Source: an uncultured Marinobacter sp.
GTDB taxonomy: Bacteria; Pseudomonadota; Gammaproteobacteria; Pseudomonadales; Oleiphilaceae
DNA length: 64,000 nt
Assembly (NCBI RefSeq): GCF_947259545.1
Contig: NZ_CAMYMK010000002.1
Span: 186,001-250,000 of the forward strand
Direction: 5' to 3'
Positions 20,365 through 39,759 of this stretch are shown here, in pieces (the stretch's first letter is position 1; the number at the start of each line of letters is the position of its first letter). The notes beneath the pieces were generated by a model. The model had not been told where the DNA came from, ran no database searches, and saw only the letters and a program-made list of their open reading frames with translations. Made by a program: the position numbers and the translations under genes.

Positions 20365-21066
20365 TCAGAAGAACAGGGTTAACCCGGATGACAGTTCGAT
20401 GTTATGAGTCAATTGATCCTCCCGGATCAGGTCACTCTTGAACATATGGTCCCGGAAATCCACATGAACGGTTAGCCAGTCCAGCAGCACCACGCGGAAT
20501 CCTGTGCCGAAGGTTGTGGTGAAGTTGTTTTCGCCGCCGAACTCGGTGTTGCCGACGCCCCCCACCAGATAAAAGGCTGAGTTGAAGGCCAGGGTGTCGC
20601 TGAAAAAGATCTCGCCCGGGAAAATATTGTAGCCCAGCAGGAAATCATAATAGTTAAAGTCTCGGTCCGAACTGCTCAGCAGGCGGACGTTACTGCCACT
20701 GAGCTCTTCGAAAGAGGTCAGGCCGGCTTCCGCCATACCGTAGTTGAACTGGATGAAGAAGTCCTCGGTGGCATGGAAGGCCGCACTGACACCAATCAGG
20801 GGTTCGGTGCTGAAGTTATCGATGGATAACAGCCCGGCGAAGCCGCCAACTTCGAAAAATTCGGCATCTATGTCTGCTTCCTTGATGGTTCGGGGCTGGA
20901 CCTCCGGGGCGATGACCTGAACCGGGGCTGGCTTGTCATCAGCCTCAGTTTCCTCAGCCAGTGCCTTCAGTGGCAGCGCGCTGCCGATACCAGCCAGCAG
21001 CAGGGCAGCGAGCCCGGTGCGAGTGCCCTTCAGGCTCAAAAGAAAGTGTTCAATCCGATTTTCCAT
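20365..21066 (-). CDS. Outer membrane beta-barrel protein
   Basis: This 233-residue protein has an N-terminal signal peptide (hydrophobic core near residues 17-36, cleavage after ALA). The mature part consists of alternating hydrophobic strands typical of a small eight-stranded barrel, ending in LTLFF with the C-terminal Phe expected by the BAM machinery. It starts within the last 31 bases of the upstream SH3/barrel gene, indicating translational coupling. Barrels of this type accompany TPR and TolQR genes in Myxococcus gliding/sporulation machines, which is the reason for linking it to the locus on the opposite strand. Confidence 0.8.
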   Translation of the reverse strand: MENRIEHFLLSLKGTRTGLAALLLAGIGSALPLKALAEETEADDKPAPVQVIAPEVQPRTIKEADIDAEFFEVGGFAGLLSIDNFSTEPLIGVSAAFHATEDFFIQFNYGMAEAGLTSFEELSGSNVRLLSSSDRDFNYYDFLLGYNIFPGEIFFSDTLAFNSAFYLVGGVGNTEFGGENNFTTTFGTGFRVVLLDWLTVHVDFRDHMFKSDLIREDQLTHNIELSSGLTLFF

Positions 21067-21833
21067 TCGCTTAAACCTGTGGTGTCTGAATTGGATGAAA
21101 CCGAGTAGACGCGGTACTCGGCCCGGATAAGGAAATTACGGCCAATGTAATAGCTGGCGCCCCCGCCAAAGTTAATGGCGTCAGCATCACCGATATCGCT
21201 CAACAGGATTTTCTGACGGGCATCGAAGGAGAAGCGGGAGACACCCGCCAGGGCATAGGGAGTGATGTCCCATTGATGGAACGGCTCGATGATGAGATTG
21301 GCGCCGTAGTAATCGCTGGTGACGGACTGGTTATAGATCTTGCCCGCCTCCACTTCCATTCCGGCCCAGCTCAGAGGGCGGTAGCCCAGGGTAAGACTGA
21401 AGGCAGTGGAATCCTCGAACCGTCCGGCGGTAAAACCGACCCTCCAACTGGACTCCAGGTACTCGCCATGGCTCACTTCCGGCAGGTCCGCGGGTATACC
21501 GGTTGGTGCCAGTGTGCGGCCAAGTTGGGCGGCCTTGGTCCAGCCTTCCTCTCCAGCCGGCGTACGGACCTTGTACCAGTTGGTCTTGCGCTTGAGAATC
21601 TCGACCTGTTCGCCTTTCTCGATGACATGGAATATCGGATATCCGCGTCCCGGGGCCGTATGCATCTCAACGAATGGATCGACAACGTACAGCACCACGC
21701 CATCACTGTCCTGATCCGCCGCACTCGAAGAGGCGGCCCAGAACAGGCTCGCAATGGCAAAGGCCATACAGGACAAGTGCCTGCCTCTGGGAATCTTCTG
21801 CCTGCAATGCTGATTGCCGGTACATCCCTTCAT
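21036..21833 (-). CDS. SH3 domain plus outer membrane beta-barrel protein
   Basis: This protein of about 265 residues has a basic N-terminus and signal peptide (MAFAIASLFWAASSSAA). A bacterial SH3-type domain follows (VDPFVEMHTAPGRGYPIFHVIEKGEQVEILKR... pattern up to GWTKAAQLG). After it comes a C-terminal barrel ending in the terminal Phe motif GLNTFF. SH3 domains of this class often bind peptidoglycan, so the protein could tie the cell wall to the outer membrane. The start at 21833 is chosen by the signal-peptide layout; the frame is open further upstream but AT-rich and non-coding in appearance. It is divergent from the 22207 gene and overlaps the next barrel gene. Confidence 0.8.
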   Translation of the reverse strand: MKGCTGNQHCRQKIPRGRHLSCMAFAIASLFWAASSSAADQDSDGVVLYVVDPFVEMHTAPGRGYPIFHVIEKGEQVEILKRKTNWYKVRTPAGEEGWTKAAQLGRTLAPTGIPADLPEVSHGEYLESSWRVGFTAGRFEDSTAFSLTLGYRPLSWAGMEVEAGKIYNQSVTSDYYGANLIIEPFHQWDITPYALAGVSRFSFDARQKILLSDIGDADAINFGGGASYYIGRNFLIRAEYRVYSVSSNSDTTGLSEWKIGLNTFF

Positions 21834-22206
21834 GGTTATCTGTAGCCGCCCAGTCTTTGTTAAAAAATGTAAAATTATGTAAACATTTGTTTTTGTTGAA
21901 GAAAAATTCCACTTGCCGGCGGACTTTGAACCTTCGGTGTGGATCGGGCAACTCTGTTTGTCCGGAAACTTGAGGGAAATCACAGAAATGAAACATGAGC
22001 GAAAAAGCGTAGGGCAGATCGTAGCGAGCCTGTGCTAGGTTATTTTACGTTATTTGACGAATGGCATTTTCAGAACAAGAAATCTGACCATCGGGAACCA
22101 AGGGCCGTTAAAAGAGCTCCCCGGGCAAGAGTCAGAAACCTCAAAAGCCAGTGCCCCGTTTCCAGTCGTAGCCAGCGAATCGAATCAGAGTTGGCGGAGG
22201 AGCACC
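21834..22206. other. AT-rich divergent intergenic region of the envelope locus
   Basis: This 373-base gap lies between divergent gene starts. The half nearer the barrel genes is markedly AT-rich (about 21850-21910, with ATGTAAAATTATGTAAAC) and probably carries the leftward promoter. Toward the right gene, TTGACG at 22054-22059 could be a -35 element but I see no convincing -10. A strong ribosome site GGAGGAG precedes ATG 22207. No RNA gene or repeat is recognisable. Confidence 0.5.
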
Positions 22207-22863
22207 ATGGCTAAGATTACAGTTCAAGAGTTTGCCAATTGGGTCAGGCCGGTACGGCATCGGGCGGTTATTGCCATGATGCTGGCGGTGCTGTGTCCGA
22301 TGACAGGCCAGGCACTGGCGGCGGAAGACGCCAGTAAGCGCGCCCCTGCTGCGGCGCTAGACCAGATCATCGAGACTCCGATGTCTATCCGCAACAGTCG
22401 CCAGCAGGCACAGCAGGCGGTCAATGAATTGTCGCGGGACATCCAGGGTCTAAAGCAATCGGTGGTGGCGCTGAACAAGGACCTCCGGGTACTCGAAGAG
22501 GATCTGTTATTCCCCGCCAATACGCAGCTCAGTGTTTTCCTGTCCCTGGACGTGGGTGAGTTCTTTCGTCTCGAAGGCGTCAAACTTAAAGTCGACAGTG
22601 AAACCGTCACCAGTTATCTGTACAGCGACCAGGAGCGGGAAGCTCTCGCCAAAGGTGGCATGCACCGCCTGCATCTGGGCAATATCAGCCCTGGCGAGCA
22701 TACCGTTTCCGCATTTTTCATTGGTGCCGGCCCCAATGGGCGTGAGTATAAGCGGGGCACCACCCACACGGTCACTAAGTCCAGCGGTCCGAAATACGTC
22801 GAGTTGAGTATCGAAGACTCGGAAGCCCGACAGCAGCCCGAATTCAGCATCCGGGAATGGTGA
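22207..22863 (+). CDS. Periplasmic coiled-coil protein of the envelope machine locus
   Basis: This 218-residue protein has a long n-region followed by a signal-like segment (AVIAMMLAVLCPMTGQALA). A coiled coil covers about residues 58-95 (RQQAQQAVNELSRDIQG...). A beta-rich domain follows (about 98-200) with an HxLxLGxIxPGxH block resembling small periplasmic carbohydrate- or protein-binding folds. ATG 22207 has a strong GGAGGAG site, and a longer frame upstream lacks one. It is the first gene of a rightward run that continues with TPR proteins and the TolQ/TolR genes. Specific function unknown. Confidence 0.75.
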   Translation: MAKITVQEFANWVRPVRHRAVIAMMLAVLCPMTGQALAAEDASKRAPAAALDQIIETPMSIRNSRQQAQQAVNELSRDIQGLKQSVVALNKDLRVLEEDLLFPANTQLSVFLSLDVGEFFRLEGVKLKVDSETVTSYLYSDQEREALAKGGMHRLHLGNISPGEHTVSAFFIGAGPNGREYKRGTTHTVTKSSGPKYVELSIEDSEARQQPEFSIREW

Positions 22864-22867
22864 CCCT

Positions 22868-24658
22868 ATGATGCGGATGTGGGAGATAGGAAAGGAGCGC
22901 TGCACGCGCCGGCTATTGTCGGTCGGCGTCGCCACGGCGGCAATGCTGGGTGGGGCTGGGCACGGCGTGGCAGCCGAGCAGGTCCAGGACCTGAAGTACG
23001 GTGCCATACTCTATGAGTTCTACCAGCAGGACTATTTCGGTGCGCTGGTGGAATACGCTTACGCAGAAGAAAAGGGCGGGATTCATGGTCATGGCACCTA
23101 TCCGGAATTGTTGAAGGGTGGTGTCAGTCTGTCCTATGGGCTGGATGTCCAGGCCGAGGACATTTTTACCCGGGTGGCCGAGGGCAATGTATCGGACCAG
23201 GCCCGTAACCGGGCCTGGTTCTACCTGGGAAAAATGCAATACCAGCGTGGGGACACCGAGCGCGCCGCACACAATTTGTCGAATGTGCGGGGACGGTTGC
23301 CAGAGTCGCTAGACGCCGAATACCGCTACCTGGCCGCCCTGGTGAACGTCAAACTCGGTTACTTCGAGGCCAGTGACAGCGTCACTGCCAGCATCGATAG
23401 CGATAGCCCGTACGCTCCCTATTTTTTCTTCAACCTGGGCATCGCCTACGGCAATCAGCAGCAGTCCGGTCTTGCTTATGAGGCGCTGGAGCGCGTGGTG
23501 TCATACGAAGGCGACAGTGAGGAACTGTCCCGGTTGGCAGACCGTGCCCGCATGGCGCTGTCTTTCCTCCACGCCCGTGAGGGGGAGCACGAACAATCCC
23601 GTCAGCAGTTCTCCCAGATACGCACCCACGGCGCCTACTCCAATCGCGGTCTTCTGGGTGCCAGCTGGCAGTCAGTCAATGACGGCGCCTTCCGGGATGC
23701 GCTGGGGCCGCTGGAGGTCCTGGCCAGTCGTTCCATCGCCCTGCCGGAGGTGCAGGAAGCACTGCTGCTCAAGCCCCACGTTTACGAGCAGATGGGGCTT
23801 GATGGCCGCGCTGCACAAGGATTCATTGACGCCGACAATAAATTCGGCGAGGCATTGGACTGGCTGGATCAGGCCCGTAACGCCCTGGCCGACGCCGACG
23901 TCATGGAGCTGTTTGTTCGCAACCTCGACAAGGTGTTGGGGGAGAGTGACTGGTTCGGGCGGGCACCGTCGGTCTCGGTCAATTACCTGTCGCCGTTCCT
24001 GGTGGAGCTGATGTCCGACCACAGTTTCCAGTCAGTGCTCAAGGATCTGCGCGATCTCTACGCGATTCGTAACAACCTGGAGTCCTGGAAAAGCCGCCAA
24101 AATGACTTCGATGTCATTCTGGCGGCCCGCAGCCAATCCCTGGCGAACGACCATCGAACACAGCAACTCAGTCATCTGGCGGCAACAGCAGGTCAGATCA
24201 AGGCCGACCATGATGCTTTGGCCAGCCGCGTGGCCAGCCTGGAACCCGGGCAGCGGGAGCAGGTGCAATGGTTGCTGGACAGCCTGGCCTTCGAAGTGAA
24301 GAGCAGTCAGGCCGCCCTGGCTGGTCTGCGAAGTGGCGGCTCAGGTAGCAGCGGCGGCGACTACGAAGCCAAAGTCCAGCGCATGATGACCGCGGTTGAC
24401 GAGAACGTGGCGCAGACCGAAGCACTGATTACAAAGCTTGAAGACGTGATGCTCACTCTGGTGTCCACCGAACTCGATATCCACGAACAGCGGCTGACGC
24501 ACTATCAGGTCGAGGCCCAGTTGGCGAAAGTCCGCATTCTTGATCGCTCTCTACTGGAGTTGGACGGCACTGAGACAGATGAGGCGACCGTCAACAGTGC
24601 CGGTGTGCAGTCACAGGAAGAAAGCGGGGAGACTGGGGAGCATAACGATGCGATATAG
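22868..24658 (+). CDS. TPR-repeat periplasmic protein (GltD/AgmU-like role possible)
   Basis: This 596-residue protein has a signal segment (LLSVGVATAAMLGGAGHGVAA). TPR-like helical pairs follow through about residue 330, e.g. NRAWFYLGKMQYQRGDTERAAHNL and APYFFFNLGIAYGNQQQSGLAYEAL. A charged helical C-terminal half ends in an acidic tail. It starts 4 bases after the preceding stop, with a weak ribosome site, so it is probably coupled. Its last 11 bases overlap the next TPR gene. TPR scaffold proteins of this size are core parts of the Myxococcus Glt and Nfs complexes; equivalence is an inference from architecture, not from alignment. Confidence 0.82.
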   Translation: MMRMWEIGKERCTRRLLSVGVATAAMLGGAGHGVAAEQVQDLKYGAILYEFYQQDYFGALVEYAYAEEKGGIHGHGTYPELLKGGVSLSYGLDVQAEDIFTRVAEGNVSDQARNRAWFYLGKMQYQRGDTERAAHNLSNVRGRLPESLDAEYRYLAALVNVKLGYFEASDSVTASIDSDSPYAPYFFFNLGIAYGNQQQSGLAYEALERVVSYEGDSEELSRLADRARMALSFLHAREGEHEQSRQQFSQIRTHGAYSNRGLLGASWQSVNDGAFRDALGPLEVLASRSIALPEVQEALLLKPHVYEQMGLDGRAAQGFIDADNKFGEALDWLDQARNALADADVMELFVRNLDKVLGESDWFGRAPSVSVNYLSPFLVELMSDHSFQSVLKDLRDLYAIRNNLESWKSRQNDFDVILAARSQSLANDHRTQQLSHLAATAGQIKADHDALASRVASLEPGQREQVQWLLDSLAFEVKSSQAALAGLRSGGSGSSGGDYEAKVQRMMTAVDENVAQTEALITKLEDVMLTLVSTELDIHEQRLTHYQVEAQLAKVRILDRSLLELDGTETDEATVNSAGVQSQEESGETGEHNDAI

Positions 24659-27494
24659 CGCAGTAATGCTGGCATTGTTACTGGGTGGCTGCGGCGCCTT
24701 CAATGGCGGTCAAACCATCAGCGGGCTGCAGGACCAGGACCGGGCACTGAACGATATCCCGTTGCCAAGTGTGCGCCATGCCGACGTGCGGGAGGAATAC
24801 CGCCGCTTACTGGAGGTGGTCGAAGAGCGCAAACTCAAAGAACAGATTGAACGCCGGATTGCCAGCGTGTACATGCTGGAGGGGGACTACCACCAGCTGC
24901 TGGGTGTGCTGCCCGGTGACGACGGTTATTTCCCCGAGGCGATCAGCGCCTACCATCAGCTCCTGGAGAAATACCCCGGATCCGACGAGAACGCGGAAGC
25001 CATGTATCAACTGGCCAAGGCCTACGACCTGGACGGTCGTGACCGGGAGGCCCAGCAAATCCTCGATCGTTTTATCGAGGATCATCCGGACTCCGAGCGG
25101 CTATCGGAGGTGTATTTCCGCAAAGGCGATATCCATTTTCGCCACGAGCAATACGAGGAGGCAGAGCAGGCCTACCAGGCAGTAGTGGCCATCGGCGGGG
25201 ACTCTGAGTTCCTCAACAACTCCCATTACCTGCTGGGCTGGGCGCGGTACAAATTGAGCGATTACGACCGCAGCCTGATGTCCTTCTCGCGGGTACTCGA
25301 CCGCCTGGTGCCGGAAGATGGCAAGGTCGAAAAACTGGGCAACGTGGACCGCTCTCTGGTGGACGACACCCTTCGGATCATGAGTGTCGGGCTTGCCCAT
25401 GCCGGTGGCGCAGGCAAGATCGACGCGATGTTTACGGGGCGCCCCGAGGCGGCCAAGTACACCTGGATACTGTACTCCAGTCTGGGTGAGCATTACCTGG
25501 AAAAGGAACGTTACGAAGACTCCGCGTCGTCATTCCGGGCGTTCGTAGAGAGCAATCCGGACTCCGACCGTGCGCCGGAAATGCATTCGGAAATGATCCG
25601 GGCCTACGTGGATGGCGAATTCTCCCAGCAGGTGTTGCCGGAGAAGGAACGCTATGTGCGTAACTACGGTATCCGTTCGGAGTTCTGGCAGACCAAACCG
25701 GCAGACATCAAGGCCAAGGTCACGCCGAATCTGAAAACCTACATCGATGAACTGGCCCGCCATTACCACGCTACCGGTCAACGCCTGAAGCGGGAGCTGG
25801 CGGATGGCAGCGTCAAGGCTTCAAAGGCCGTTGCCATGGCCGGCGAGCAGCGCACCAGCTTCCTCAAAGCGGCGGATTTCTACAGCGAATACGAACAGAC
25901 CTTCCCGAACGACCCGCGTGTGCCGGAAATGGTGTACATGCGCGCCGAAGCCGCTTTTGACGGCGAAGACTACCCCGGGGCCATCGTCGACTACGAGCGC
26001 AGTGCCTACGAGTTCCGCCACCCCGAATACGGTCCGGATGCCGGTTATGCCGCCATTGTGGCCTATCAGAAGCAGGTGGAGCAGGTTATTGCCAGCACCG
26101 GGAAGCAGAGCGAGGAGCTGACCGAATGGCGGAGCAAGGCGGTGGAAAGCCAGTTGCGCTTTGTTCAGGAGTACCGTGCGGACGAGCGCTCCGGTGCCGT
26201 TCTTGCCAAGGCCTCGGAGGAGCTGTTCGAGCTGGGCCGCTACGAGAAGGCGTTGGAAGTGGCTACCAGCGTGGTCAGTGGCGCAGGCACCGTGGATCGT
26301 GACCTCAATCGCACCGCCTATGGCGTAATCGCACACAGCCAATATGAGCTGGGCGATTATGCTGCAGCGGAGCAGGGCTACCGCAAGCAACTGGAATACA
26401 TCCCGGCCGACAGCGAAGAGTCCGGCAAGGTAACCGAGCGTATGGCCATCACCATCTACAAGCAGGGTGAGCAGGCCCTGGCTGCCGAGGACATGGCCGC
26501 TGCCATTGACCAGTTCCTTCGAATCAAGGCCGTTGCCCCCAACACCGATGCGCGGGTGGCTGCCCAGTTTGATGCTGCCACTTACCTGATGAAACTGGAA
26601 ATCTGGGACCGGGCGTTGACCGAAATGCATGAGCTGCGTCGCCTGTTTCCCAATCACAAGCTCGCCGCATCTTTGCCACAGAAGATCGCCTACGCCTACG
26701 AACAGGACGAGCGCTGGGCCAGTGCCGCCAGGGAATACGAAGCCATTTACCACAGCAACGCCAGTGCCGCAGAGCGGCGTGATGCGCTATTCCTGGCGGC
26801 TGAACTCTACGAGCAGGCCGGTGAGGAGCAGCAGGCCCTGGCGTACTTCAAAAAGTGGGCATTTGACTACGAAGAGCCGTTCGATACCCGCATGGAAGCC
26901 CGCTACCACGTGGCCTACCTGTACAAGCGCCACAACGATCTCAATCGCCACCTTTACTGGCTGCGCCGGGTGATCGATGGCCACAACGAGGCCCCCGGCT
27001 CCTGGCAGACCGACCGCTCGGCCTGGCTGGCGGCCTGGGCCAACAACGAGTACGGCGATTACTGGCGCATTGAATTTGACCGGGTGAAGCTGCGGGCACC
27101 GCTCAACAAAAGCATTCCCCGCAAGAACGAGAAGCTGAAGAACGCCCTCGACCGATACCAGCAAGCGGCGGAATACGGTGTGCTCGAACAGACAACCCGT
27201 GCCAGCTACAACATTGCCAACCTCTATGGCCAGTTCGCCCGGGAGCTGATGGACGCGCCCCGGCCGGCGGGCCTGAGCGATCTGGAAAGAATGCAGTACG
27301 AACTGGTGCTGGAAGAACAGGCGATACCGTTTGAGGAGCTCGCAATTGAGCTTCACCAGGCGAATATCGAGCGCTCATGGAACGGCATATTCAACCGCTG
27401 GGTGGAAAAGAGCTTTGCAGACATGGCCAGGCTCAATCCGGCGCGATTCGACAAGCAAGAAGTACAGGTGGCTTATGGCGAAGGTATCCGTTAA
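24648..27494 (+). CDS. Large TPR-repeat outer membrane lipoprotein
   Basis: This 948-residue lipoprotein (lipobox LLGGC, mature Cys near 15) consists almost entirely of TPR-type helical hairpins, e.g. NAEAMYQLAKAYDLDGRDREAQ, SEVYFRKGDIHFRHEQYEEAEQAY and TAYGVIAHSQYELGDYAAAEQGYR. ATG 24648 follows GGGGAG and lies inside the end of the previous gene; the upstream frame is the previous gene out of phase. The protein is long for a single TPR scaffold and is probably anchored to the inner face of the outer membrane, where it could organise the barrels. It overlaps the next gene by 20 bases. Confidence 0.85.
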   Translation: MRYSAVMLALLLGGCGAFNGGQTISGLQDQDRALNDIPLPSVRHADVREEYRRLLEVVEERKLKEQIERRIASVYMLEGDYHQLLGVLPGDDGYFPEAISAYHQLLEKYPGSDENAEAMYQLAKAYDLDGRDREAQQILDRFIEDHPDSERLSEVYFRKGDIHFRHEQYEEAEQAYQAVVAIGGDSEFLNNSHYLLGWARYKLSDYDRSLMSFSRVLDRLVPEDGKVEKLGNVDRSLVDDTLRIMSVGLAHAGGAGKIDAMFTGRPEAAKYTWILYSSLGEHYLEKERYEDSASSFRAFVESNPDSDRAPEMHSEMIRAYVDGEFSQQVLPEKERYVRNYGIRSEFWQTKPADIKAKVTPNLKTYIDELARHYHATGQRLKRELADGSVKASKAVAMAGEQRTSFLKAADFYSEYEQTFPNDPRVPEMVYMRAEAAFDGEDYPGAIVDYERSAYEFRHPEYGPDAGYAAIVAYQKQVEQVIASTGKQSEELTEWRSKAVESQLRFVQEYRADERSGAVLAKASEELFELGRYEKALEVATSVVSGAGTVDRDLNRTAYGVIAHSQYELGDYAAAEQGYRKQLEYIPADSEESGKVTERMAITIYKQGEQALAAEDMAAAIDQFLRIKAVAPNTDARVAAQFDAATYLMKLEIWDRALTEMHELRRLFPNHKLAASLPQKIAYAYEQDERWASAAREYEAIYHSNASAAERRDALFLAAELYEQAGEEQQALAYFKKWAFDYEEPFDTRMEARYHVAYLYKRHNDLNRHLYWLRRVIDGHNEAPGSWQTDRSAWLAAWANNEYGDYWRIEFDRVKLRAPLNKSIPRKNEKLKNALDRYQQAAEYGVLEQTTRASYNIANLYGQFARELMDAPRPAGLSDLERMQYELVLEEQAIPFEELAIELHQANIERSWNGIFNRWVEKSFADMARLNPARFDKQEVQVAYGEGIR

Positions 27495-28320
27495 TTCCGT
27501 ACGTACCGCTGGGATCCTGGGAATATTGCTGGTGTCCGGCTGTGCCGCGCTGCTCCCGCAACCCCAGGACAACAGTACCGTGGATGAGACCAAAGCGTCT
27601 CAGCCAATGGTGGCAGGCAGCCCGGCCACGCAATCCGATGCCCGGGCTCCGCTGCCGCAACAGGCGTATACCGCGGAAGGCGAGAAGATTGAATACAGGG
27701 CTGAGCCGAACCCCTATACCTCCAGCGACTCTGACGTTCCCCAGGAGGCGAGACTTGCTTTTCAGTCTGCCAGCAAGCTGATGGCTGCTGAACAGTATCG
27801 CGAAGCCCGCAAGGCATTCAAAGCAATGACCAGGGACTTTCCGACCCTGTCCGGGCCATGGGTGAAGCTGGGTGAAATTGCCGATAAACGGGATAACGCG
27901 CCACGGGCCGAAGCTGCCTACCGTAAGGCCATTGAGGTGAATCCTGACAACGTCAACGCATACATGGCACTGGCGCTGCACCAGCGTCGCCAGGGTGATT
28001 TTGACGGAGCCAGACAAACCTATGTTGATGCGCTGGAGCTGTGGAAGGATTTCCCGGGTGCCCATCTGAACCTCGCCATCCTCTATGACCTTTACCTGAA
28101 CCAACCGGAACTGGCCCAGCCTCACTACGAGGCCTACGACTTCCTCACCAAGGGTAATGACCCCAAAGTCGGCAACTGGCTGGTCGAGGTGCGCCGTCGC
28201 ACCGGTATTGAAACCAGCTTCATCGATAACCCGCCTCCACCGCCGGAGTTACCTGCGGAATCGTCGGAGCCGGTAGCTGCCGACAAGGGCGCTGAAAACG
28301 GTCAGACAGACAAAGGCTAG
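27475..28320 (+). CDS. TPR-repeat lipoprotein
   Basis: This 281-residue lipoprotein has the lipobox LVSGC (mature Cys near 23). A low-complexity linker to about residue 85 is followed by about three TPR units, e.g. SGPWVKLGEIADKRDNAPRAEAAYRKA and NVNAYMALALHQRRQGDFDGAR, and a Pro/Glu-rich tail. ATG 27475 has AGGTGG upstream and overlaps the end of the large TPR gene. Small TPR lipoproteins of this sort sit next to TolR genes in Glt/Nfs-type loci. It is followed after 9 bases by the 104-residue periplasmic gene. Confidence 0.82.
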   Translation: MAKVSVNSVRTAGILGILLVSGCAALLPQPQDNSTVDETKASQPMVAGSPATQSDARAPLPQQAYTAEGEKIEYRAEPNPYTSSDSDVPQEARLAFQSASKLMAAEQYREARKAFKAMTRDFPTLSGPWVKLGEIADKRDNAPRAEAAYRKAIEVNPDNVNAYMALALHQRRQGDFDGARQTYVDALELWKDFPGAHLNLAILYDLYLNQPELAQPHYEAYDFLTKGNDPKVGNWLVEVRRRTGIETSFIDNPPPPPELPAESSEPVAADKGAENGQTDKG

Positions 28321-28329
28321 GAGTTCACC

Positions 28330-28644
28330 ATGTGGAAAAACATCGCGCGACCCGGCTCGCCGCTGGTCGCTGTCACGGTCCTTTTGACCCTGACATTCGC
28401 CACGGCGGTGAGCGCCCAGGAAGACATTGACCTGGAAAGCACCTTTGTCGGTGACAAGGAACAGCCCTCGGTAAGTTATTTCATTCCCTGGAAGCCGCCG
28501 GAGGGACCGGAAAAGCTGTACCGCTCCATCACCTCCGTCTCAGGACGGGTGTTTGAGGTGGTCGACCGGGATATTCACTCACGAACCATGCAGTTTTACG
28601 ACGAACTTTCTCTGGAAGAACCGTTGGGTTCTTCTCATGAGTGA
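28330..28644 (+). CDS. Small secreted protein of the envelope locus
   Basis: This 104-residue protein has a clear Sec signal (SPLVAVTVLLTLTFATAVSAQ) and an acidic mature part of about 75 residues with PWKPPEGPEKLYRS. AGGAG precedes the ATG. It lies between the TPR lipoprotein and the TolQ homologue with short gaps on both sides, so it is almost certainly part of the same transcript. I do not recognise a family. Its small size and position suggest an accessory periplasmic subunit. Confidence 0.72.
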   Translation: MWKNIARPGSPLVAVTVLLTLTFATAVSAQEDIDLESTFVGDKEQPSVSYFIPWKPPEGPEKLYRSITSVSGRVFEVVDRDIHSRTMQFYDELSLEEPLGSSHE

Positions 28645-28699
28645 GCCAACAAGCAGAAACACACAAACCAATCAAATAGCTAGCTGTGGGGTGTAGACC

Positions 28700-29365
28700 A
28701 TGAACCTTTATTCAACAATCGTTTCTTTTTTCCAGGACGGCGGTGCATTTATGCTTCCGATTGCCTTGATACTGATGGTGGGGCTGGCGATTGCAGTGGA
28801 ACGCTGGTTCTTCCTCAAGCGCGCTTATCAAGCCAACCGGGCAGCCTACTCGGAATTGCTTCCGCTGGTGGATAAAAAGCAATTTGATCAGGCCGAGACA
28901 GCGGCGCAAGGCAACGGTTCCGCTATTGGCCGTTTGCTGTCCGTGGCGCTGGACACCAAGCGTTCGTCTCCTCGTCGTGATGATATACACGCTGCCATGC
29001 AGGAAGGTGTGATGGAGAGCATCCCCCGGCTGTCCAAGCGCACCAACTACCTGTCCACCCTGGCGAACATCGCCACCCTGTTGGGCCTGCTCGGTACCAT
29101 CATCGGCCTGATTGCCGCCTTCACGGCCGTAGCCAATGCCGACCCGGCCGACAAGGCCACCCTGCTATCCCAGTCTATCTCGGTAGCGATGAACACCACC
29201 GCGTTCGGCCTGATGGCTGCCATCCCGCTGCTGTTGATCCACTCGCTGCTGCAGAACAAGACCCTGGAAATTGTCGAAAGCATCGAGATGGCTGGCGTGA
29301 AGTTCCTCAACTCCATCGTTCGCAGCAACCGTGCATCCGTGGCAACACGCGAGTCAGACGCCTGA
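28700..29365 (+). CDS. MotA/TolQ/ExbB proton channel family protein
   Basis: This 221-residue inner-membrane protein has three membrane segments (about 13-35, 113-138 and 155-178). The family blocks GLLGTIIGLIAAF and MNTTAFGLMAAIP form the proton-path helices. Proteins of this family pentamerise around a TolR/ExbD dimer and convert proton flow into movement. The two following genes supply two different TolR/ExbD partners, and a TonB-like transducer comes next. Dedicated TolQ-TolR-TolR sets of this form power AglRQS in Myxococcus. It is distinct from the housekeeping tolQRA and exbBD loci, because pal/tolB and a receptor gene are absent. Confidence 0.93.
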   Translation: MNLYSTIVSFFQDGGAFMLPIALILMVGLAIAVERWFFLKRAYQANRAAYSELLPLVDKKQFDQAETAAQGNGSAIGRLLSVALDTKRSSPRRDDIHAAMQEGVMESIPRLSKRTNYLSTLANIATLLGLLGTIIGLIAAFTAVANADPADKATLLSQSISVAMNTTAFGLMAAIPLLLIHSLLQNKTLEIVESIEMAGVKFLNSIVRSNRASVATRESDA

Positions 29366-29384
29366 ACAACAGTGGTGTGAAACT

Positions 29385-29912
29385 ATGTTTTCCAAGCGAA
29401 GAGAGCTCGAAGAAGCCGACATCGATATCACCGCGTTCATGAACCTGATGATCGTGCTGGTGCCGGTGCTGCTGATGAGCATGGTGTTCAATCACATTGC
29501 CATCCTGGAACTGAACCTGCCGGACCTGACCGGTGCGCAGACCTCCAGCGCGGAGGAAAACCGCCAACTGGAAGTGGTGCTGCGGGAGTCCGCTATTGAG
29601 GTCTACTACCCCAGCGGTCGCCTGGTGAAGACCATCGATAACATCGAGGGTAAGGAGCCTGAAGCCAGTCGTCACGACTTCAAGACCCTCTCCACCGTGC
29701 TGCAGGAAATCAAGCGCAAACTGGCGGCCAGCAACGTCGACAAGCGCGACGCACTGCTGTTGTCCGAAGCTGGCGTCAGCTACCAGTCACTGGTGTCCAC
29801 CATGGACGCCCTGCGTTCAGCGAAGACCGTGGTGGTGGCCGATGAGGTGGATGTTGAGCTGTTCCCGGAAATTTCCCTGGGCGACGCGCCGAAGAAGGGA
29901 GGGAAGTCATGA
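29385..29912 (+). CDS. ExbD/TolR family protein 1 (Asn at proton-path position)
   Basis: This 175-residue protein has one N-terminal membrane helix (about 16-37) and a periplasmic TolR-like domain. Aligned by eye with E. coli TolR, the helix reads DIDITAFMNLMIVLV against EINIVPLLDVLLVLL, so the essential proton-carrying Asp is replaced by Asn20. ATG 29385 is chosen because the frame upstream is the tolQ-like gene out of phase. It overlaps the second TolR gene by 4 bases (ATGA). As a heteromeric stator partner it could be structural while the second paralogue carries the proton. Confidence 0.9.
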   Translation: MFSKRRELEEADIDITAFMNLMIVLVPVLLMSMVFNHIAILELNLPDLTGAQTSSAEENRQLEVVLRESAIEVYYPSGRLVKTIDNIEGKEPEASRHDFKTLSTVLQEIKRKLAASNVDKRDALLLSEAGVSYQSLVSTMDALRSAKTVVVADEVDVELFPEISLGDAPKKGGKS

Positions 29913-30415
29913 TCGACCAGAAACTGACGTCATTCAGCCTTCAGGGGCAGCACAAGCAGTTCATGAAACCGGCCAAGCTGAACCTGGTGTCGCTGATGGA
30001 CATTTTCACCATCCTGGTTTTTTTCCTGCTGCTGAATTCTGGCAGCAACGAAATTCTCAAGGTTAACAAGGATATAACGCTGCCTGATTCCACCGCCCAG
30101 GAGGCAGCCAGGGAGACCATCACGGTGCTGATCACCGACGAAGACATCCTCGTGGATGGCCGGCCGGTGGCGACCATGGAAGATGTGGTGAATGGCAACG
30201 GTTTGATTGCCGGCCTGCAGCAGGAACTGGGTTTCCTGGCCTCGAAGCGCACAGAGCTGACCGAAGAAGAGAAGGTCCTTGGGCGGTCGGCGACCATCCT
30301 GGGCGACCAGGAAGTGCCTTACGAGATTCTCAAACGCGTCATGTTGACCTGCGCCAAGGCCAATTACCGGGATCTCTCTCTGGCCGTTTCACGAGTGGCC
30401 GGAGGCGGCGCCTAG
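29909..30415 (+). CDS. ExbD/TolR family protein 2 (Asp retained)
   Basis: This 168-residue protein has a short cytoplasmic N-terminus, one membrane helix (about 24-45) and a periplasmic domain of about 120 residues. The helix starts KLNLVSLMDIFTILV, and Asp31 aligns with the proton-carrying Asp of TolR/ExbD. It starts inside the stop of the first ExbD gene (ATGA overlap) and is followed after 14 bases by the TonB-like gene. Together with the TolQ homologue it should form a proton-driven stator. Confidence 0.92.
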   Translation: MIDQKLTSFSLQGQHKQFMKPAKLNLVSLMDIFTILVFFLLLNSGSNEILKVNKDITLPDSTAQEAARETITVLITDEDILVDGRPVATMEDVVNGNGLIAGLQQELGFLASKRTELTEEEKVLGRSATILGDQEVPYEILKRVMLTCAKANYRDLSLAVSRVAGGGA

Positions 30416-30429
30416 TCCGGGAGCATTAA

Positions 30430-31383
30430 ATGACGACATTAACAACGACACCCTACGATTTTGCCCTTCCCTGGGACGCCAGTGCGGAAGAAGACAGCCG
30501 GTTTAAGCGCATCCTTAAACGCCTGGGCTTGTTGTTCCTGCTGTTCGCGCTGGTGTTTCCATGGCTGCCTTTGCCGGAAATTGAGCGGGAAGAGCAGGAG
30601 CGCATTCCGCCGGCCCTGGCGAAAGTTCTGGTCGAACAGCGCAAGGTTGCGCCGCCGCCCCCACCACCGGAACCGGTGAAGGAAGAGGTCAGCGAACAGC
30701 CCAAGCCGAAGAAAGAGACGGCGCCGAAACCGGCCCCCAAGAAAGAAGTGCAGGCGGCCCGGAAAAAGGTCTCTACGATGGGCGTCGCGGCCTTCTCCGA
30801 TGAGTTGTCCTCGCTCCGCAGTTCCGTCGATGTGGCGAAGCTGCAGGCCCGCAACACCAACGTCGAGACCGGCGCAGCTGCCAAGGCCGCCCGTTCCGTT
30901 CTCGGGGCAACCTCGGCGACCAAGACCAGTGGCGGTGTGAACAGTTCGGAGATGAACAGCACCGGAACAGGCACCCAGCTTGCCAGCCACGCCTCCAAGG
31001 CGGTGGAAAGCCCTATCGGGGGCGGCACTGGCGGCACTGGAGCCAGTGGCGGCTCGGGGAGTGGGGGCGGTTCCCATCGATCGACGGTGGACAGTGGCCG
31101 GGATATGGAGTCCATCCGTCGGGTCTTCGAGCAGCACAAGGGCGCTATCTATGCCCTGTACAACCGGGCGCTGAGAAGCGACCCGAACGTCAAGGGCAAG
31201 TTTGTGTTCCACATTGTGATCCAGCCTGACGGCAGCATCTCCAGCATCAAGCTGGTGGACAGCCAGCTCGGTGACAAGACGCTGGAGACCAAGTTGCTGG
31301 CACGGATACAGATGATTTCCTTCGGTCCGGAGGACGTTGCCGCCACGCCCGTTAACTACAAGTTCGATTTTATGCCTGGTTGA
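30430..31383 (+). CDS. TonB-like transducer with AgmX/PglI-type C-terminal domain
   Basis: This 317-residue protein has a cytoplasmic N-terminus, one membrane helix (about 34-55) and a Pro/Lys-rich periplasmic spacer (PPPPPPEPVKEE... through about 115). A Gly/Ser-rich linker lies near 195-218. The C-terminal domain (about 225-317) shows the pattern of AgmX/PglI C-terminal domains: IYALYNRALR, GKFVFHIVIQPDGSIS, LLARIQMISFG. Such proteins transmit stator motion across the periplasm. It closes the TolQ-TolR-TolR set. AgmX is a gliding protein of Myxococcus, which is the main reason for proposing an Agl-Glt-like machine. Confidence 0.88.
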   Translation: MTTLTTTPYDFALPWDASAEEDSRFKRILKRLGLLFLLFALVFPWLPLPEIEREEQERIPPALAKVLVEQRKVAPPPPPPEPVKEEVSEQPKPKKETAPKPAPKKEVQAARKKVSTMGVAAFSDELSSLRSSVDVAKLQARNTNVETGAAAKAARSVLGATSATKTSGGVNSSEMNSTGTGTQLASHASKAVESPIGGGTGGTGASGGSGSGGGSHRSTVDSGRDMESIRRVFEQHKGAIYALYNRALRSDPNVKGKFVFHIVIQPDGSISSIKLVDSQLGDKTLETKLLARIQMISFGPEDVAATPVNYKFDFMPG

Positions 31384-31385
31384 CC

Positions 31386-31426
31386 GGCACGTTACGCCAC
31401 CGGAACGACCGGTGGCGTAACGTGCC
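31386..31426 (+). repeat. 18-bp perfect inverted repeat (intercistronic hairpin)
   Basis: The arms GGCACGTTACGCCACCGG (31386-31403) and its exact complement (31409-31426) flank a 5-base AACGA loop. No T-run follows on either strand, so it is not a standard terminator. It could be an RNase III or mRNA-stability element separating the stator genes from the cytochrome-like gene. Confidence 0.8.
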
Positions 31427-31456
31427 CTGGCGGTTCTGATATTGGAGAGGTAGATC

Positions 31457-34375
31457 ATGAATACATTGCGCAAGCGAGTTATCGGCCTGGGACTGGTCGG
31501 TATTGCGTTTCTGGGGCTCGGTGGCTGCTTTGAAGGCGAACTGAGCGACAATGAGCAGAGCATGATGTCTGACCAGCCTTTTGCCTATGTGGTGCGAGGT
31601 TATCCGGACATGGGCGATACCTCCTCCGTTAATGCCAGGCCACCGCTGGACCCCCGCGACCCCTATGCTTTCAATCCCGGTGCCCGGCTGATGGTGCGGG
31701 ACCGTATTGCCCTGAGTTCGTCAGAGAAGGATATCCTGAAGGGCTATTTCGGCAGCAGCAACTATGACGTCAAAGACGTGGACGTGTCACCGGACGGCGA
31801 GCGCATGGTGTTTGCGGCCCATGGACCGGCCAGCAATACCGCCCACAGTACCTGGAACATTTACGAGTATACCTTCGCTTCCGGCCAGGTACGGCGAGTC
31901 TTCGCCGATGACGATATAGCCAATGCCGGTCAGGACACCAACCCCGCGTACACCAACGAGGGGCGCATCATATTCTCCTCGTCGCGACAACATTCCCGGG
32001 GGGACTGGCGTCTGCTGGATCTGCGTGAGTACCTGGAAGATTTCAGCGAACCGGCTTCCCTGTTGCATCTGGTCAGCCGGGATGGCTCCGGACTTGCCCA
32101 GATCACCTTTGGTGAGTTTCATGACATTGAGCCGAATACCATGAACGACGGCCATGTGGTATTCATCCGGTTTGGCCGCCTGTATGAGACCCTGGAAGAC
32201 TGTACGCTGGAAAATATCGACGACCCCAATTTCAATACCCATCCCCACGGCGGCGGGTTCGGTCAGGGCAATGGCAACGGCTTCCCATCCGGTCTGGAAG
32301 AGTCCAAGGAATGGACTGTTGAAGACAAATGCGGTGCCTCGCTAGCAGGTGAAGTCGAAAACGAGCGGGTGTTCGTGGAAGACGTGCTCAGCATGTACCG
32401 CATTACCCCCAGTGGCGGTAACGTGCACCGTTACTTCGGAAGCCTCAGTGAAGAGTTTAACGATGCTTCCTTCATTCACTACATGGACCCGATCCCGCTG
32501 GATGACGGCAACCTGATCACGATCATGCGCCATATCTACAACCCCAACTATGGCGGCGATGTGGTCAAGATCAACAGCAAGAACTTCTTTGCGGTGGGGC
32601 AGCCGGTAGACGAAAGCGTCATCGGTGAAGCAGAGGAATCCATGACTCCGGGTCTGGTCAATTTCTTCCCCAATCAGGTATCGCCGTCCGGTTGGTACAG
32701 TGCCGTCGCCCCCTATGGGGATGGCAGCGGACGACTGCTGGCCAGCTGGGCCCAGTGTCTGGTTGAGGACGAAGAGATCAACGCGGTCTGCGAGGGTGCG
32801 TCCACCGTAGAGAACCTGGGCGAACCCCAATACGGCATCTGGATGGTGGACCCTGCCAGCAATACCCGCCTGCCGGTGGTGCGTGGTCATGAGCGGGCAC
32901 TGTATACCGACATTGTGATAGCCAGCCGGAATGATCTGGCGCGGCCCTACACCGGCAACCGGAATGACCTGAATCTGGAGAACGACACCGCGGTGTTCCA
33001 CATACGCAGTGTGTATGACCGGGACGGCACCGACATGGCGGAACTCTGGGACGGTGGTATCGAGACTCGCCGGGACCTCTCCCTGACCCAGCCCGATGAC
33101 CGCTCCGAGCGCTTTATCCGCGTGCTGGGCAAACGTAGCATCCCGCCGGAACTGGAGCAGGCGATACTCACCAATGAAATCCTCAATCCCAGTGACGGCT
33201 CGCGGCCCCCGCTGGGGCTGACGCCCTTACTGGGCACCGGGGGGCGCGGACTGTATGACGTACTTTCCTACGCCATGGTTGAGCCTGATGGCTCGGCGAT
33301 GGTGAAAGTGCCGGCGGAGACCAGCTTTACCTTTGAAGTGGTGAACAAGTACGGCAAACGTGTCGACCTGATTGCTGCTGATCAGTACAACTACAATTAC
33401 CTGACCCAGCATCCCAGTTCGCTGCTGCTGGAGGACGGAGAGATACTCAAGTGTTACGGCTGCCATGATCCGGAACTCGACATTCCCCATGCCCGTACGG
33501 ATGTGGAGCTGGCGTCTGCCAACCCCGGGGCGCCGGGCGATGCCATGCCGTTCCCCAATGCCAATCCGAGGATCCTGGCGCAGAACTGGAAGGACACCAT
33601 GGCCGAAGCGCTGGCGGACTCCCTGGGTTATCTGCCCACGACCTGGGCGGACAACCTGAGCTACGAGGATTTCTGGAATAACCCGCCGGATGACTCACTG
33701 GCGTTTGAAGTTCCGTACGCCGGCCTGACCACCCCGGTCCCGACTGATGATCCGTCCTGCCTCACGGACTGGACTTCGGACTGCAAGGCGACCATCAACT
33801 ATCAGGAGCACATCCAGCCAATCTGGAATGCCTGCCGGGTTAACCCCAATGACAACAACGCCATCACTTCCTGCCAGAACTGCCACCGTGCAGCCGAGTC
33901 CAAATCCTGCCCGGAAGGGGGAGGGGGCGGAGGTGCCAGCACCAACCTGCTGCTGGGTGATGGCCACGCGTCCTGGGACGGCCGTCAGCTTGAATCCTAT
34001 GTCGAGCTGTTCGAGCCGGATTACTACCTGAAACAGGAGAACGGCGACTGGGTTGAAGTCTCCGATCCGGATGCCGAGGGCGCGTGCCCCAATGGTGTCG
34101 AAGGGGATCTGAGTGTCGACCACGAACCCGGAACCTGCTTCAGCCGCCGCTTGATGAGTGGGCGGGGTGCTATCGCCAGCGCCCGCTTCTTCAGCCTGTT
34201 CGACGATGACACGGACGATGACGAATACGAAGTGGAAGTCGAAGGCACCGCGACCATCAGGGAGAGCCACCAGGGCATGCTGAGCCGGGCCGAATTGCGG
34301 CTGATTGCCGAATGGCTCGACAGTGGCGCACACCTGTTCAACGATCCCGGGAAGTTTGAATTCCCGCAAGAATAA
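31457..34375 (+). CDS. HzsA-like diheme c-type cytochrome domain lipoprotein
   Basis: This 972-residue lipoprotein has the lipobox LGLGGC (mature Cys near 24). Residues about 90-560 contain TolB/propeller-like repeats (DVSPDGERMVFAA, NEGRIIFSSSRQ, NDGHVVFI). Two CxxCH heme sites lie in the C-terminal part: Cys666-Cys669-His670 (CYGCH) and Cys806-Cys809-His810 (CQNCH), with an inserted poly-Gly loop near 822. This layout is that of proteins related to the hydrazine synthase alpha subunit; hydrazine synthesis itself is not expected in a gammaproteobacterium. AGAGGT precedes ATG 31457. It follows the TonB-like gene after a hairpin-containing 73-base gap. Confidence 0.8.
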   Translation: MNTLRKRVIGLGLVGIAFLGLGGCFEGELSDNEQSMMSDQPFAYVVRGYPDMGDTSSVNARPPLDPRDPYAFNPGARLMVRDRIALSSSEKDILKGYFGSSNYDVKDVDVSPDGERMVFAAHGPASNTAHSTWNIYEYTFASGQVRRVFADDDIANAGQDTNPAYTNEGRIIFSSSRQHSRGDWRLLDLREYLEDFSEPASLLHLVSRDGSGLAQITFGEFHDIEPNTMNDGHVVFIRFGRLYETLEDCTLENIDDPNFNTHPHGGGFGQGNGNGFPSGLEESKEWTVEDKCGASLAGEVENERVFVEDVLSMYRITPSGGNVHRYFGSLSEEFNDASFIHYMDPIPLDDGNLITIMRHIYNPNYGGDVVKINSKNFFAVGQPVDESVIGEAEESMTPGLVNFFPNQVSPSGWYSAVAPYGDGSGRLLASWAQCLVEDEEINAVCEGASTVENLGEPQYGIWMVDPASNTRLPVVRGHERALYTDIVIASRNDLARPYTGNRNDLNLENDTAVFHIRSVYDRDGTDMAELWDGGIETRRDLSLTQPDDRSERFIRVLGKRSIPPELEQAILTNEILNPSDGSRPPLGLTPLLGTGGRGLYDVLSYAMVEPDGSAMVKVPAETSFTFEVVNKYGKRVDLIAADQYNYNYLTQHPSSLLLEDGEILKCYGCHDPELDIPHARTDVELASANPGAPGDAMPFPNANPRILAQNWKDTMAEALADSLGYLPTTWADNLSYEDFWNNPPDDSLAFEVPYAGLTTPVPTDDPSCLTDWTSDCKATINYQEHIQPIWNACRVNPNDNNAITSCQNCHRAAESKSCPEGGGGGGASTNLLLGDGHASWDGRQLESYVELFEPDYYLKQENGDWVEVSDPDAEGACPNGVEGDLSVDHEPGTCFSRRLMSGRGAIASARFFSLFDDDTDDDEYEVEVEGTATIRESHQGMLSRAELRLIAEWLDSGAHLFNDPGKFEFPQE

Positions 34376-34391
34376 AAAAGGAAGCCGAACC

Positions 34392-35069
34392 GTGACAGTG
34401 GCTAGCAACCAGACAGAAATTATAAACCTTGACCGCTGGAACCTGCCGGATCTGGAACTTGAGCGGCAGGGATGGGGGGTTCCGCAGCGGGACACCTGGA
34501 AGGCAGATAGCCGGTTTCGCCAAGCCAATGTGCGCCGCAAGACCGGTACTGTGTTCACTCGTTTTAATCGGCACTTTCTGTCGATCCAGGCCTACCATAA
34601 GAAACGACCGCTGCCCGAGGCTGTGATCGACCTGGCCTTCCTGGAGCAGACGCCCAGGGAGGTCAAGGACTACAAGTCGCGGCTATGGCTGGCGGCAGCC
34701 AGCCTGCTGACCATCCCGCTTGCGCTGTTCTCGCTGCTGCCGACAGAACCCTTGTGGCTGATCCCGCCGTTTGCCACCGCACTGATGCTGATCGTGATCG
34801 CACTGCAACTGCGCCAGCACTATTTTGAGTTCCTTGCGCTCAACAGCGATGTGGTCGTGTTCCGGCTGGACGCGGGGCTGCCGGATAAGGTGAGGGCGGA
34901 TGCCTTTATCGAGGAATTGTCGACCAGCATTGCCGACGCCCAACGGGGCTTGCCATCGGGCAGGCAGCGAATTCCGTTAGCGGTTGCCGAAATGCGGAGG
35001 CTGTCGGAGGACGGGGTGATCAGCAAGGAAGAATATGAAACCGTCAAGCTCAACTGGTTCCATGGCTGA
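34392..35069 (+). CDS. Inner membrane protein with two TM helices and SHOCT-like tail
   Basis: This protein of about 225 residues has two adjacent membrane helices (about 98-118 and 122-142). Its C-terminal tail, LAVAEMRRLSEDGVISKEEYETVKLNW, has the L...L...G.I..EEYE..K pattern of SHOCT-type short domains, which often end signalling or envelope proteins. GTG 34392 is used because AAAAAGGAAG lies at the right distance; a second GTG two codons later is possible. It begins 16 bases after the HzsA-like gene and is probably the last gene of the locus. Function unknown. Confidence 0.72.
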   Translation: MTVASNQTEIINLDRWNLPDLELERQGWGVPQRDTWKADSRFRQANVRRKTGTVFTRFNRHFLSIQAYHKKRPLPEAVIDLAFLEQTPREVKDYKSRLWLAAASLLTIPLALFSLLPTEPLWLIPPFATALMLIVIALQLRQHYFEFLALNSDVVVFRLDAGLPDKVRADAFIEELSTSIADAQRGLPSGRQRIPLAVAEMRRLSEDGVISKEEYETVKLNWFHG

Positions 35070-36039: not shown

Positions 36040-36053
36040 GGCATTCATAAAGG

Positions 36054-36097
36054 GGCGGCAGCTTGAATCCAGGGGATTCGAGCTGCCGCCTTTTTTT
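36054..36097 (+). terminator. Intrinsic terminator of the secreted-protein gene
   Basis: GGCGGCAGCT pairs with AGCTGCCGCC and GAATCC with GGATTC, giving a 16-17 bp stem with a short loop followed by seven T. Confidence 0.9.
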
Positions 36098-39609: not shown

Positions 39610-39759
39610 GGGGCCTCCGTTCTGTGAGCAATCCATTTGCCGAACGGACATCACTGCCACGGAATCGTGGCATATCGGCGATCAGACCATAGAGTATAGG
39701 CCCATCATGGGGAGAGTAAAAGTGATTGCAGATGCGACATAGATCTGTCGCATCAAGGG

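Follow-up and report, generated by a model that had tools for sequence, protein, structure and literature searches.

The window analysed here is a 64,000-nucleotide stretch of DNA from an uncultured Marinobacter sp. (assembly GCF_947259545.1, contig NZ_CAMYMK010000002.1, positions 186,001 to 250,000 of the forward strand), part of contig C2 of a 4.08-Mb genome (G000), and it holds a cluster of genes resembling the Agl-Glt gliding and Nfs spore-coat machines of Myxococcus. Positions below are those of the window, and start sites were set from signal sequences and from relatives. The locus reads as follows.

20365..21066, minus strand: OMPa, an outer-membrane beta-barrel of family TIGR04565 (OMP_myx_plus; 160 bits against a cut-off of 60), a GltA/B- or NfsA/B-like candidate
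21036..21833, minus strand: OMPb, an SH3 domain joined to an outer-membrane barrel (SH3_3 41.5 bits, OMP_b-brl 29.7 bits)
22207..22863, plus strand: CC, a secreted coiled-coil protein with a long helix and an Ig-like beta-sandwich
22868..24658, plus strand: TPR1, a periplasmic TPR protein homologous to those found at the GltC/NfsC position
24648..27494, plus strand: TPR2, a TPR lipoprotein (lipobox LGGC), GltD homologue
27475..28320, plus strand: TPR3, a TPR lipoprotein (lipobox VSGC), GltE-like by position and sequence
28330..28644, plus strand: a small secreted protein resembling GltF in position and, weakly, in sequence
28700..29365, plus strand: a TolQ/AglR-type proton-channel subunit (TolQ/MotA; PF01618, 96 bits)
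29385..29912, plus strand: TolRa, the TolR at the AglQ position, with Asn20 (PF02472, 37 bits)
29909..30415, plus strand: TolRb, the TolR at the AglS position, with Asp31 (PF02472, 57 bits)
30430..31383, plus strand: a GltG-like arm of TonB/TolA type with an AgmX/PglI C-terminal domain (NF033768, 64 bits against a cut-off of 40)
31457..34375, plus strand: HZS, a 972-aa diheme lipoprotein with the hydrazine synthase alpha fold and a TolB-like beta-propeller
34392..35069, plus strand: a 225-aa membrane protein with two hydrophobic stretches, found in the close Marinobacter form only (6/99 loci)

The initial annotation had named two barrels, a coiled-coil protein, three TPR proteins, a small secreted protein, one TolQ, two TolR and an AgmX-tailed protein in tight, often overlapping order, and profile and signal-sequence evidence places every one of these parts and overlaps as listed. 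It was silent on HZS (31457-34375) and on the 225-aa protein, both of which lie within the span that it covered. The OMPb reading frame opens at 21983 with a likely start at 21833, and OMPb scores 21 bits on TIGR04565, under the cut-off (60); the frame of the 225-aa protein opens at 34305 with a likely GTG start at 34392. The arm protein (30430-31383) has one membrane helix, a Pro-rich stretch and conserved prolines. Pfam at E 0.01 gave no match for the small secreted protein, the AgmX-like protein or OMPa, and the AgmX-like protein, searched against PDB sequences, had, judged by titles, chance or low-complexity matches only.

Conservation and gene order of the core

The two barrel genes are divergent from a plus-strand unit of nine genes, CC through the AgmX-like gene (22207-31383), which we call the core. 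Gene neighbourhoods were compared across 99 loci, made up of the window, 18 picked loci (among them the second core cluster in the genome of the window) and 80 stretches from a class sample that were fetched for matches to a TPR2 profile; the fragment rows G133:C301, G242:C69 and G188:C218 were left out, L041 was dropped from this annotation as having no TPR2, and L048 went unused. Among these loci, which are not independent of one another and some of which are cut by contig ends, all nine core genes were recognised in 56 of 99 and stand in the same order in 55 of those 56, an arrangement that is not chance. CC is present in 83/99 and the small secreted protein in 91/99, with OMPa in 35/99 and OMPb in 34/99. 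Conservation of the stator genes goes together with that of the TPR genes and, in a subset of loci, with that of the barrels, as the initial annotation's reading of this one locus implied. TPR2 itself shares 71-96% identity with proteins named from Marinobacter, in keeping with the stated genus, and two Hahella proteins reach 72-73%. HZS and the 225-aa gene come after the core, in its direction, in 6/6 close loci (the window and L029-L033).

Several variants of the arrangement were seen along the way. Core copies L228, L229, L232, L233, L236 and L237 have no adjacent motor or AgmX-like gene though the contig continues, as if their motor were encoded elsewhere and shared, as in Glt and Nfs. The window's own genome carries a second, divergent Glt-like core (G000:C7:232000-250000; L045), which is preceded by a CoxE-like VWA protein and shows no barrels or HZS in the fetched stretch; a similar locus occurs in G013 (L046), and many genomes of the genus have second NF033768 matches. 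At G056:C10 (L041, L042) the cluster is apparently split, one part holding HZS, barrels, CC and TPR1 and another, some 40 kb away, TPR2, the motor and the AgmX-like gene. L164, L181 and L208 have a PDZ-domain protein at the AgmX end of the core, one of these being weakly like GspC of type II secretion.

A promoter scan of the locus was uninformative (3 found against 5.9 expected), and the strongest terminator-like site falls beyond the operon. At 36051-36094 a terminator-like hairpin of 20 pairs, with a run of T, stands between the gene for a secreted-looking protein of 232 aa and that for a carbonic anhydrase, and further downstream (38188-39660) lies a wax ester synthase/diacylglycerol acyltransferase gene.

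Myxobacterial homologues and an asymmetric motor

The idea of an Agl-Glt/Nfs-type core in Gammaproteobacteria is not new, having been published by Luciano et al. in 2011 (PMC3169522), who described an Agl-Glt 'core complex' in this class, two Marinobacter included, and left its function open; in 2013 the same core was called a standalone machinery and a possible basal transport system (PMC3858216). As set out in the relevant passages of the 2011 paper, that core consists of AglRQS clustered with homologues of GltC, D, E and G and one additional gene, with several copies per genome, much as here, where the GltE counterpart is a candidate. The present locus adds to it the barrels, the GltF-like protein, HZS and the Asn of TolRa. 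The terms 'cytochrome' and 'redox' occur 0 times in the main text of PMC3169522, and what goes beyond the published passages is the HZS diheme lipoprotein, the asymmetry between TolRa (Asn) and TolRb (Asp) and a CC homologue beside mglA.

Homology to the Myxococcus machines was evaluated in three Myxococcaceae genomes reached via their MglA gene, namely Myxococcus sp. CA023 (G330), G331 and Hyalangium versicolor (G332). The record of G331 is titled Comamonas sp. KCTC 72670; its MglA and glt clusters are myxobacterial, its MglA (L050) shares 99% identity with the Myxococcus query, and the record is probably mistitled. 'GltC' here denotes paralogues at the GltC/NfsC position, the separate gltABC cluster being outside the fetched DNA. 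With the window-type GltD profile (A1), the top four loci in each genome are all of GltD type, and a GltG-like protein lies on the same contig in 4/4 of these for G331 and G332 and in 2/4 for G330, where contigs are short. One of the four is the gltD-E-G cluster (GltG 1072-1095 bits), and one lies on the mglA contig, 3 to 4 kb from mglA. The order of this mglA-adjacent cluster in G331 and G332, CC-C-D-E-small-G, is as in the window, and the G330 contig stops after D. On the gammaproteobacterial GltD profile, the mglA-adjacent Glt-like cluster outscores the gliding cluster itself (L147, L151, L155). Other clusters we named Nfs-like because their barrel-C-D-E-G order matches the nfs order as given in PMC3858216; in these, weak barrel-like matches (E 1e-4 to 2e-3) lie directly upstream of the GltC-type gene of C-D-E-G.

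Searches in the reverse direction revealed the same correspondence for two of the TPR proteins. The Myxococcaceae GltD profile puts TPR2 at the top of all matches in the window's genome (E 7.7e-43), and the TPR1-type profile, which matches the GltC/NfsC-position proteins of the Myxococcaceae clusters at E 1e-15 to 2e-12, is answered by a Myxococcota GltC-type profile that ranks TPR1 first in the same genome (E 7.7e-14). The TPR3-type profile matches the GltE-position proteins with 105-182 bits, the arm-type profile matches GltG-type proteins with E 1e-13 to 1e-22, and two of the mglA-adjacent clusters encode, between their GltE- and GltG-type genes, a small protein that the window's small secreted protein resembles weakly (E 6e-4 and 1e-3). 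The GltJ equivalog scored 16 bits at the locus against a cut-off of 450. In a FastTree phylogeny of GltD, for which the program flagged the meeting of long branches, a branch with support 100 sets the Myxococcaceae copies apart, and the root was placed there; the tree label 'core-only' means not seen within the ~20 kb fetched, and G240 has HZS ~19 kb from its GltD-like gene. The initial annotation had seen the parts list of the Agl-Glt and Nfs machines here and had allowed that the AgmX-like domain or the TPR proteins might turn out to belong to unrelated families. The AgmX-like domain, over its curated cut-off, and two of the TPR proteins stay within Glt/Nfs families, and together with the AglRQS-type motor described below they bear the comparison out.

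The AlphaFold2 model of CC (mean pLDDT 78.9) is a helix with a beta-sandwich, and a fold search against the PDB gave no match at E<=0.001, a result that excludes nothing. A distant CC homologue precedes the GltC-type gene of the mglA-adjacent cluster in 3/3 Myxococcaceae genomes (E 5e-7, 7e-6 and 1e-7). The one additional gene of the published core was reported to have no homologue in Myxococcales (PMC3169522, in the passages concerned). CC is probably that gene, and if it is, the additional gene does have a weak homologue in Myxococcaceae. Several relatives of CC are named 'AraC family transcriptional regulator' in databases, which looks like misannotation; a transcription-factor assignment for CC is not supported, given its signal-peptide-like start and its modelled helix and beta-sandwich.

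The motor was compared with four AglRQS-type loci fetched from two Myxococcaceae genomes (G331, G332). These loci score 155-181 bits on the window-family TolQ profile, versus 95-105 bits for other Myxococcaceae TolQ, and 74-80 bits on the TolRa profile; on the TolRb profile they score 88-113 bits versus 16-23 bits for the TolR of other loci. The window TolQ missed both the tolQ equivalog (TIGR02796, 60 bits against 221) and the exbB equivalog (TIGR02797, 52 bits against 206) by a wide margin, in support of the initial proposal of a motor distinct from TolQRA and ExbBD-TonB; AglRQS is the better match.

Within this motor the two TolR proteins are unlike. Asn20 of TolRa aligns with Asp28 of AglQ, and Asn stands there in 76/77 of the set, the window included, so that the Asp28 of the Myxococcus gliding machine's AglQ is not matched in the window; the membrane Asp of TolRb (Asp31 in the window) is kept in 77/77. 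The register is secure because the G331 protein at the AglQ place has both the published AglQ length, 162 aa (PMC3169522), and an Asp at position 28. Both TolRs carry Asp in both AglRQS-type loci examined in each of G331 and G332, and a 2022 review likewise gives a conserved Asp in both AglQ and AglS, with homo- versus heterodimer not known (PMC9389320, in part). According to PMC3858216, AglR binds GltG and NfsG, and the AglQ change D28N abolishes proton conductance and paralyses the Myxococcus machine; the natural Asn at the AglQ site is that same change. If TolRa and TolRb pair together, each TolR pair in the motor of Gammaproteobacteria probably has a single working Asp, and such one-Asp-of-two motors are a natural test of the number of proton sites needed.

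Among known systems, the Nfs machine (nfsA-H with AglRQS, as described in PMC3858216) shares with the window its barrel-C-D-E-(F)-G order and its AglRQS-type motor. It differs in borrowing the AglRQS motor that is also used for gliding, whereas the window motor lies in the operon, and in both Myxococcus machines AglQ keeps Asp28 where TolRa has Asn. The vWA force transducers, to judge from their description in PMC12204202, have a tolQ-like gene, two unlike tolR-like genes and a TPR gene, as in the window; their arm is a vWA protein and the one here is AgmX/PglI-tailed, and the likeness is drawn from their description.

HZS and the company it keeps

HZS has two c-type heme motifs, an HZS_alpha middle domain and a TolB-like propeller, and on these it belongs to the HzsA-like family. 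It is 18% identical over the aligned part to the alpha subunit of hydrazine synthase (HzsA, 5c2v), from which it differs in being a lipoprotein, and any catalysis by HZS is only putative. No HzsB or HzsC was noticed at the locus (the genome was not searched for them), and no match to HZS was found in the Myxococcota clusters examined. Some distant HZS relatives (P0197, P0200, P0203, P0212 and P0216, some of them from Teredinibacter, Pleionea and Aliikangiella) have extra PKD or fibro-slime domains, which suggests a surface or adhesive role for these.

Co-occurrence was surveyed in 274 sampled gammaproteobacterial genomes, with 42 HZS matches (45 rows less 3 second pieces) and with 5 short TPR2 rows left out. 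The HZS family occurs in 39 of these genomes, and 38 of the 39 also hold a GltD-like protein (Fisher p 1.5e-28, in a test that ignores shared ancestry); 28 of the 42 HZS matches lie within 25 kb of a GltD-like gene. Across 35 HZS loci, OMPa and OMPb are each present in 30, and the run HZS-OMPb-OMPa-thioredoxin-DUF3570-CC was found in 21, spread over the tree.

A particular DUF3570 subfamily is coupled to the core in the same way: 40 of the 41 genomes with it hold a GltD-like gene, and 31/45 of its matches lie within 25 kb of one versus 0/47 for other DUF3570s (20 weaker DUF3570 rows, of E 1.1e-14 or weaker and several of them second pieces of one gene, were left out). DUF4266 accompanies DUF3570 in 25/28 loci, with a CxC end in 25/26 DUF4266 matches. 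ApbE was found in 19/99 loci and in 7/28 DUF3570 loci, and lies just upstream of CC, with no DUF3570 in the fetched DNA, in L163, L166, L167, L168, L169, L175, L178, L186 and L211. The [ST]GA[ST] flavinylation motif occurs in 8/28 coupled DUF3570 proteins and together with ApbE, in fetched DNA, in 1/28, and canonical flavinylation is therefore unsupported for most relatives. The window genome has 0 matches to PF12094 (DUF3570), which rules out a flavin role of this kind for the window.

DUF3570 is an ApbE substrate in Chlorobium, and flavinylation gene clusters combine DUF3570, DUF4266, thioredoxin and ApbE (PMC8238504, in the parts seen). Three or four such genes adjoin the core in many relatives, where DUF3570 nevertheless forms a separate, low-scoring subfamily that is mostly without the motif. 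As far as titles and the beginnings of abstracts go, we recognised no literature joining DUF3570 or HzsA-like proteins to TolQ, TolR or gliding genes, and a search for Marinobacter biofilm literature found no paper. A further literature search yielded just the two Myxococcus papers, and PMC11334425 contributed nothing more.

What the machine may do at the outer membrane

The locus belongs, complete and conserved, to the Agl-Glt/Nfs kind, and what marks it as a variant is its diheme HzsA-fold lipoprotein together with the asymmetry of its motor. The initial annotation's dedicated envelope motor or secretion/assembly machine is supported, at the level of sequence, by homology, gene order and co-conservation, and our preferred reading, to which we give a probability of roughly 0.6, is a dedicated, proton-driven force transducer that spans the envelope and acts on the barrels and HZS as a complex in the outer membrane. 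The working order that we infer is one in which TolQ and a TolRa/TolRb pair would form the stator, and the aspartate of TolRb alone would carry the protons, TolRa having Asn at the AglQ Asp28 site. The motor would then move the GltG-like arm, which may span the periplasm with its Pro-rich stretch and TonB/TolA-like tail and so reach a scaffold made of CC and the three TPR proteins (GltC-, GltD- and GltE-like, the last two being lipoproteins). This scaffold would in turn assemble, present or cycle the complex of two barrels and HZS.

Several observations weigh against this reading. At the level of the parts, a reverse GltE-type profile ranks another TPR protein first (73 bits) and TPR3 second (57 bits), so that the GltE-like assignment rests on position and forward matches, and the NCBIfam equivalogs fall short for both TPR3 (GltE, NF033758, 32 bits against 225) and the arm (GltG, NF033760, 36 bits against 650). 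A complete adjacent motor is missing from 22/99 loci, partly from contig ends. As for the proposed target, the co-occurrence test takes no account of common descent, and the outer-membrane place of HZS is a prediction from its lipobox. In fetched DNA, 64/99 core loci are without HZS and 59/99 without any of HZS, OMPa and DUF3570, so HZS cannot be a requirement of all core complexes and the core must have uses without it. The arrangement also varies, with HZS upstream of the GltD-like gene on the same strand in 23 of 35 loci, downstream (the window's way) in 7 and on the other strand in 5, and in the window the barrels lie on the strand opposite to the core.

The same variation in position and strand, along with the many core loci that lack HZS, could mean that HZS and the barrels are merely chance neighbours of an ordinary core complex. 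We hold this to be the least probable of the alternatives, as a GltD-like gene accompanies HZS in all but one of its genomes, most HZS matches lie near one, and the long run of genes from HZS to CC recurs across the tree. Only slightly less improbable is a TonB-like importer or an accessory envelope-integrity system of the Tol-Pal type, for which one could cite the resemblance of the AgmX-like arm to TonB/TolA, of the HZS propeller to TolB and of the TPR proteins to CpoB. The tolQ and exbB equivalog scores lie far under their cut-offs, however, and no TonB-dependent receptor or Pal was found among the 20 ORFs (open reading frames) of the region scanned against Pfam; nine of the genome's ten MotA/TolQ/ExbB matches lie elsewhere and provide other candidates for the canonical systems, and profile scores and gene order favour AglRQS/Glt. 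A surface-motility (gliding) machine, in which the complex would travel along the envelope and propel the cell by way of barrels and an adhesin, is unlikely too, though it is helped by the PA14, fibro-slime and PKD domains of distant HZS relatives, which give these a surface-exposed look. The GltJ equivalog falls far short at this locus, and the AglQ change that paralyses gliding is the natural state of TolRa. The genes present (AglRQS, GltC, D, E, F and G, with the barrels as A/B candidates) are nearly the set that Luciano et al. speculated marks a potential glider, but the same authors held the core complex alone unlikely to drive motility (PMC3169522, in the passages concerned).

Of more weight, if still doubtful, is the possibility that the locus is an extracellular redox apparatus first, with HZS and, elsewhere, thioredoxin, DUF4266, DUF3570 and ApbE forming an outer-membrane electron path that the motor only builds or maintains. 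The two heme motifs of HZS fit such a path, as do the tight coupling of the DUF3570 subfamily to the core, its frequent DUF4266 partner with the CxC end, the occurrence of ApbE in some loci and the role of DUF3570 as an ApbE substrate in Chlorobium (PMC8238504, as above). Against it stand the window genome, which has no DUF3570 match, the scarcity of ApbE, of the motif and above all of both together in the DUF3570 loci, and the fact that no periplasmic electron donor was identified.

The force-transducer reading can be taken one tentative step further, to a mechanically driven outer-membrane redox machine in which a half-active stator, with one proton-carrying Asp per TolR pair, pulls on a surface complex, or builds or cycles it, the HzsA-fold diheme lipoprotein being its working part, with thiol and sometimes flavin partners in relatives. 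We regard this step as somewhat speculative and its being correct as rather doubtful; if true, it would mean that a force transducer powered by protons serves electron transfer at the outer membrane or chemistry at the surface. That HZS is inherited with the core suggests what the machine may work on, and this co-inheritance offers a concrete target that makes the question of the core's function testable.

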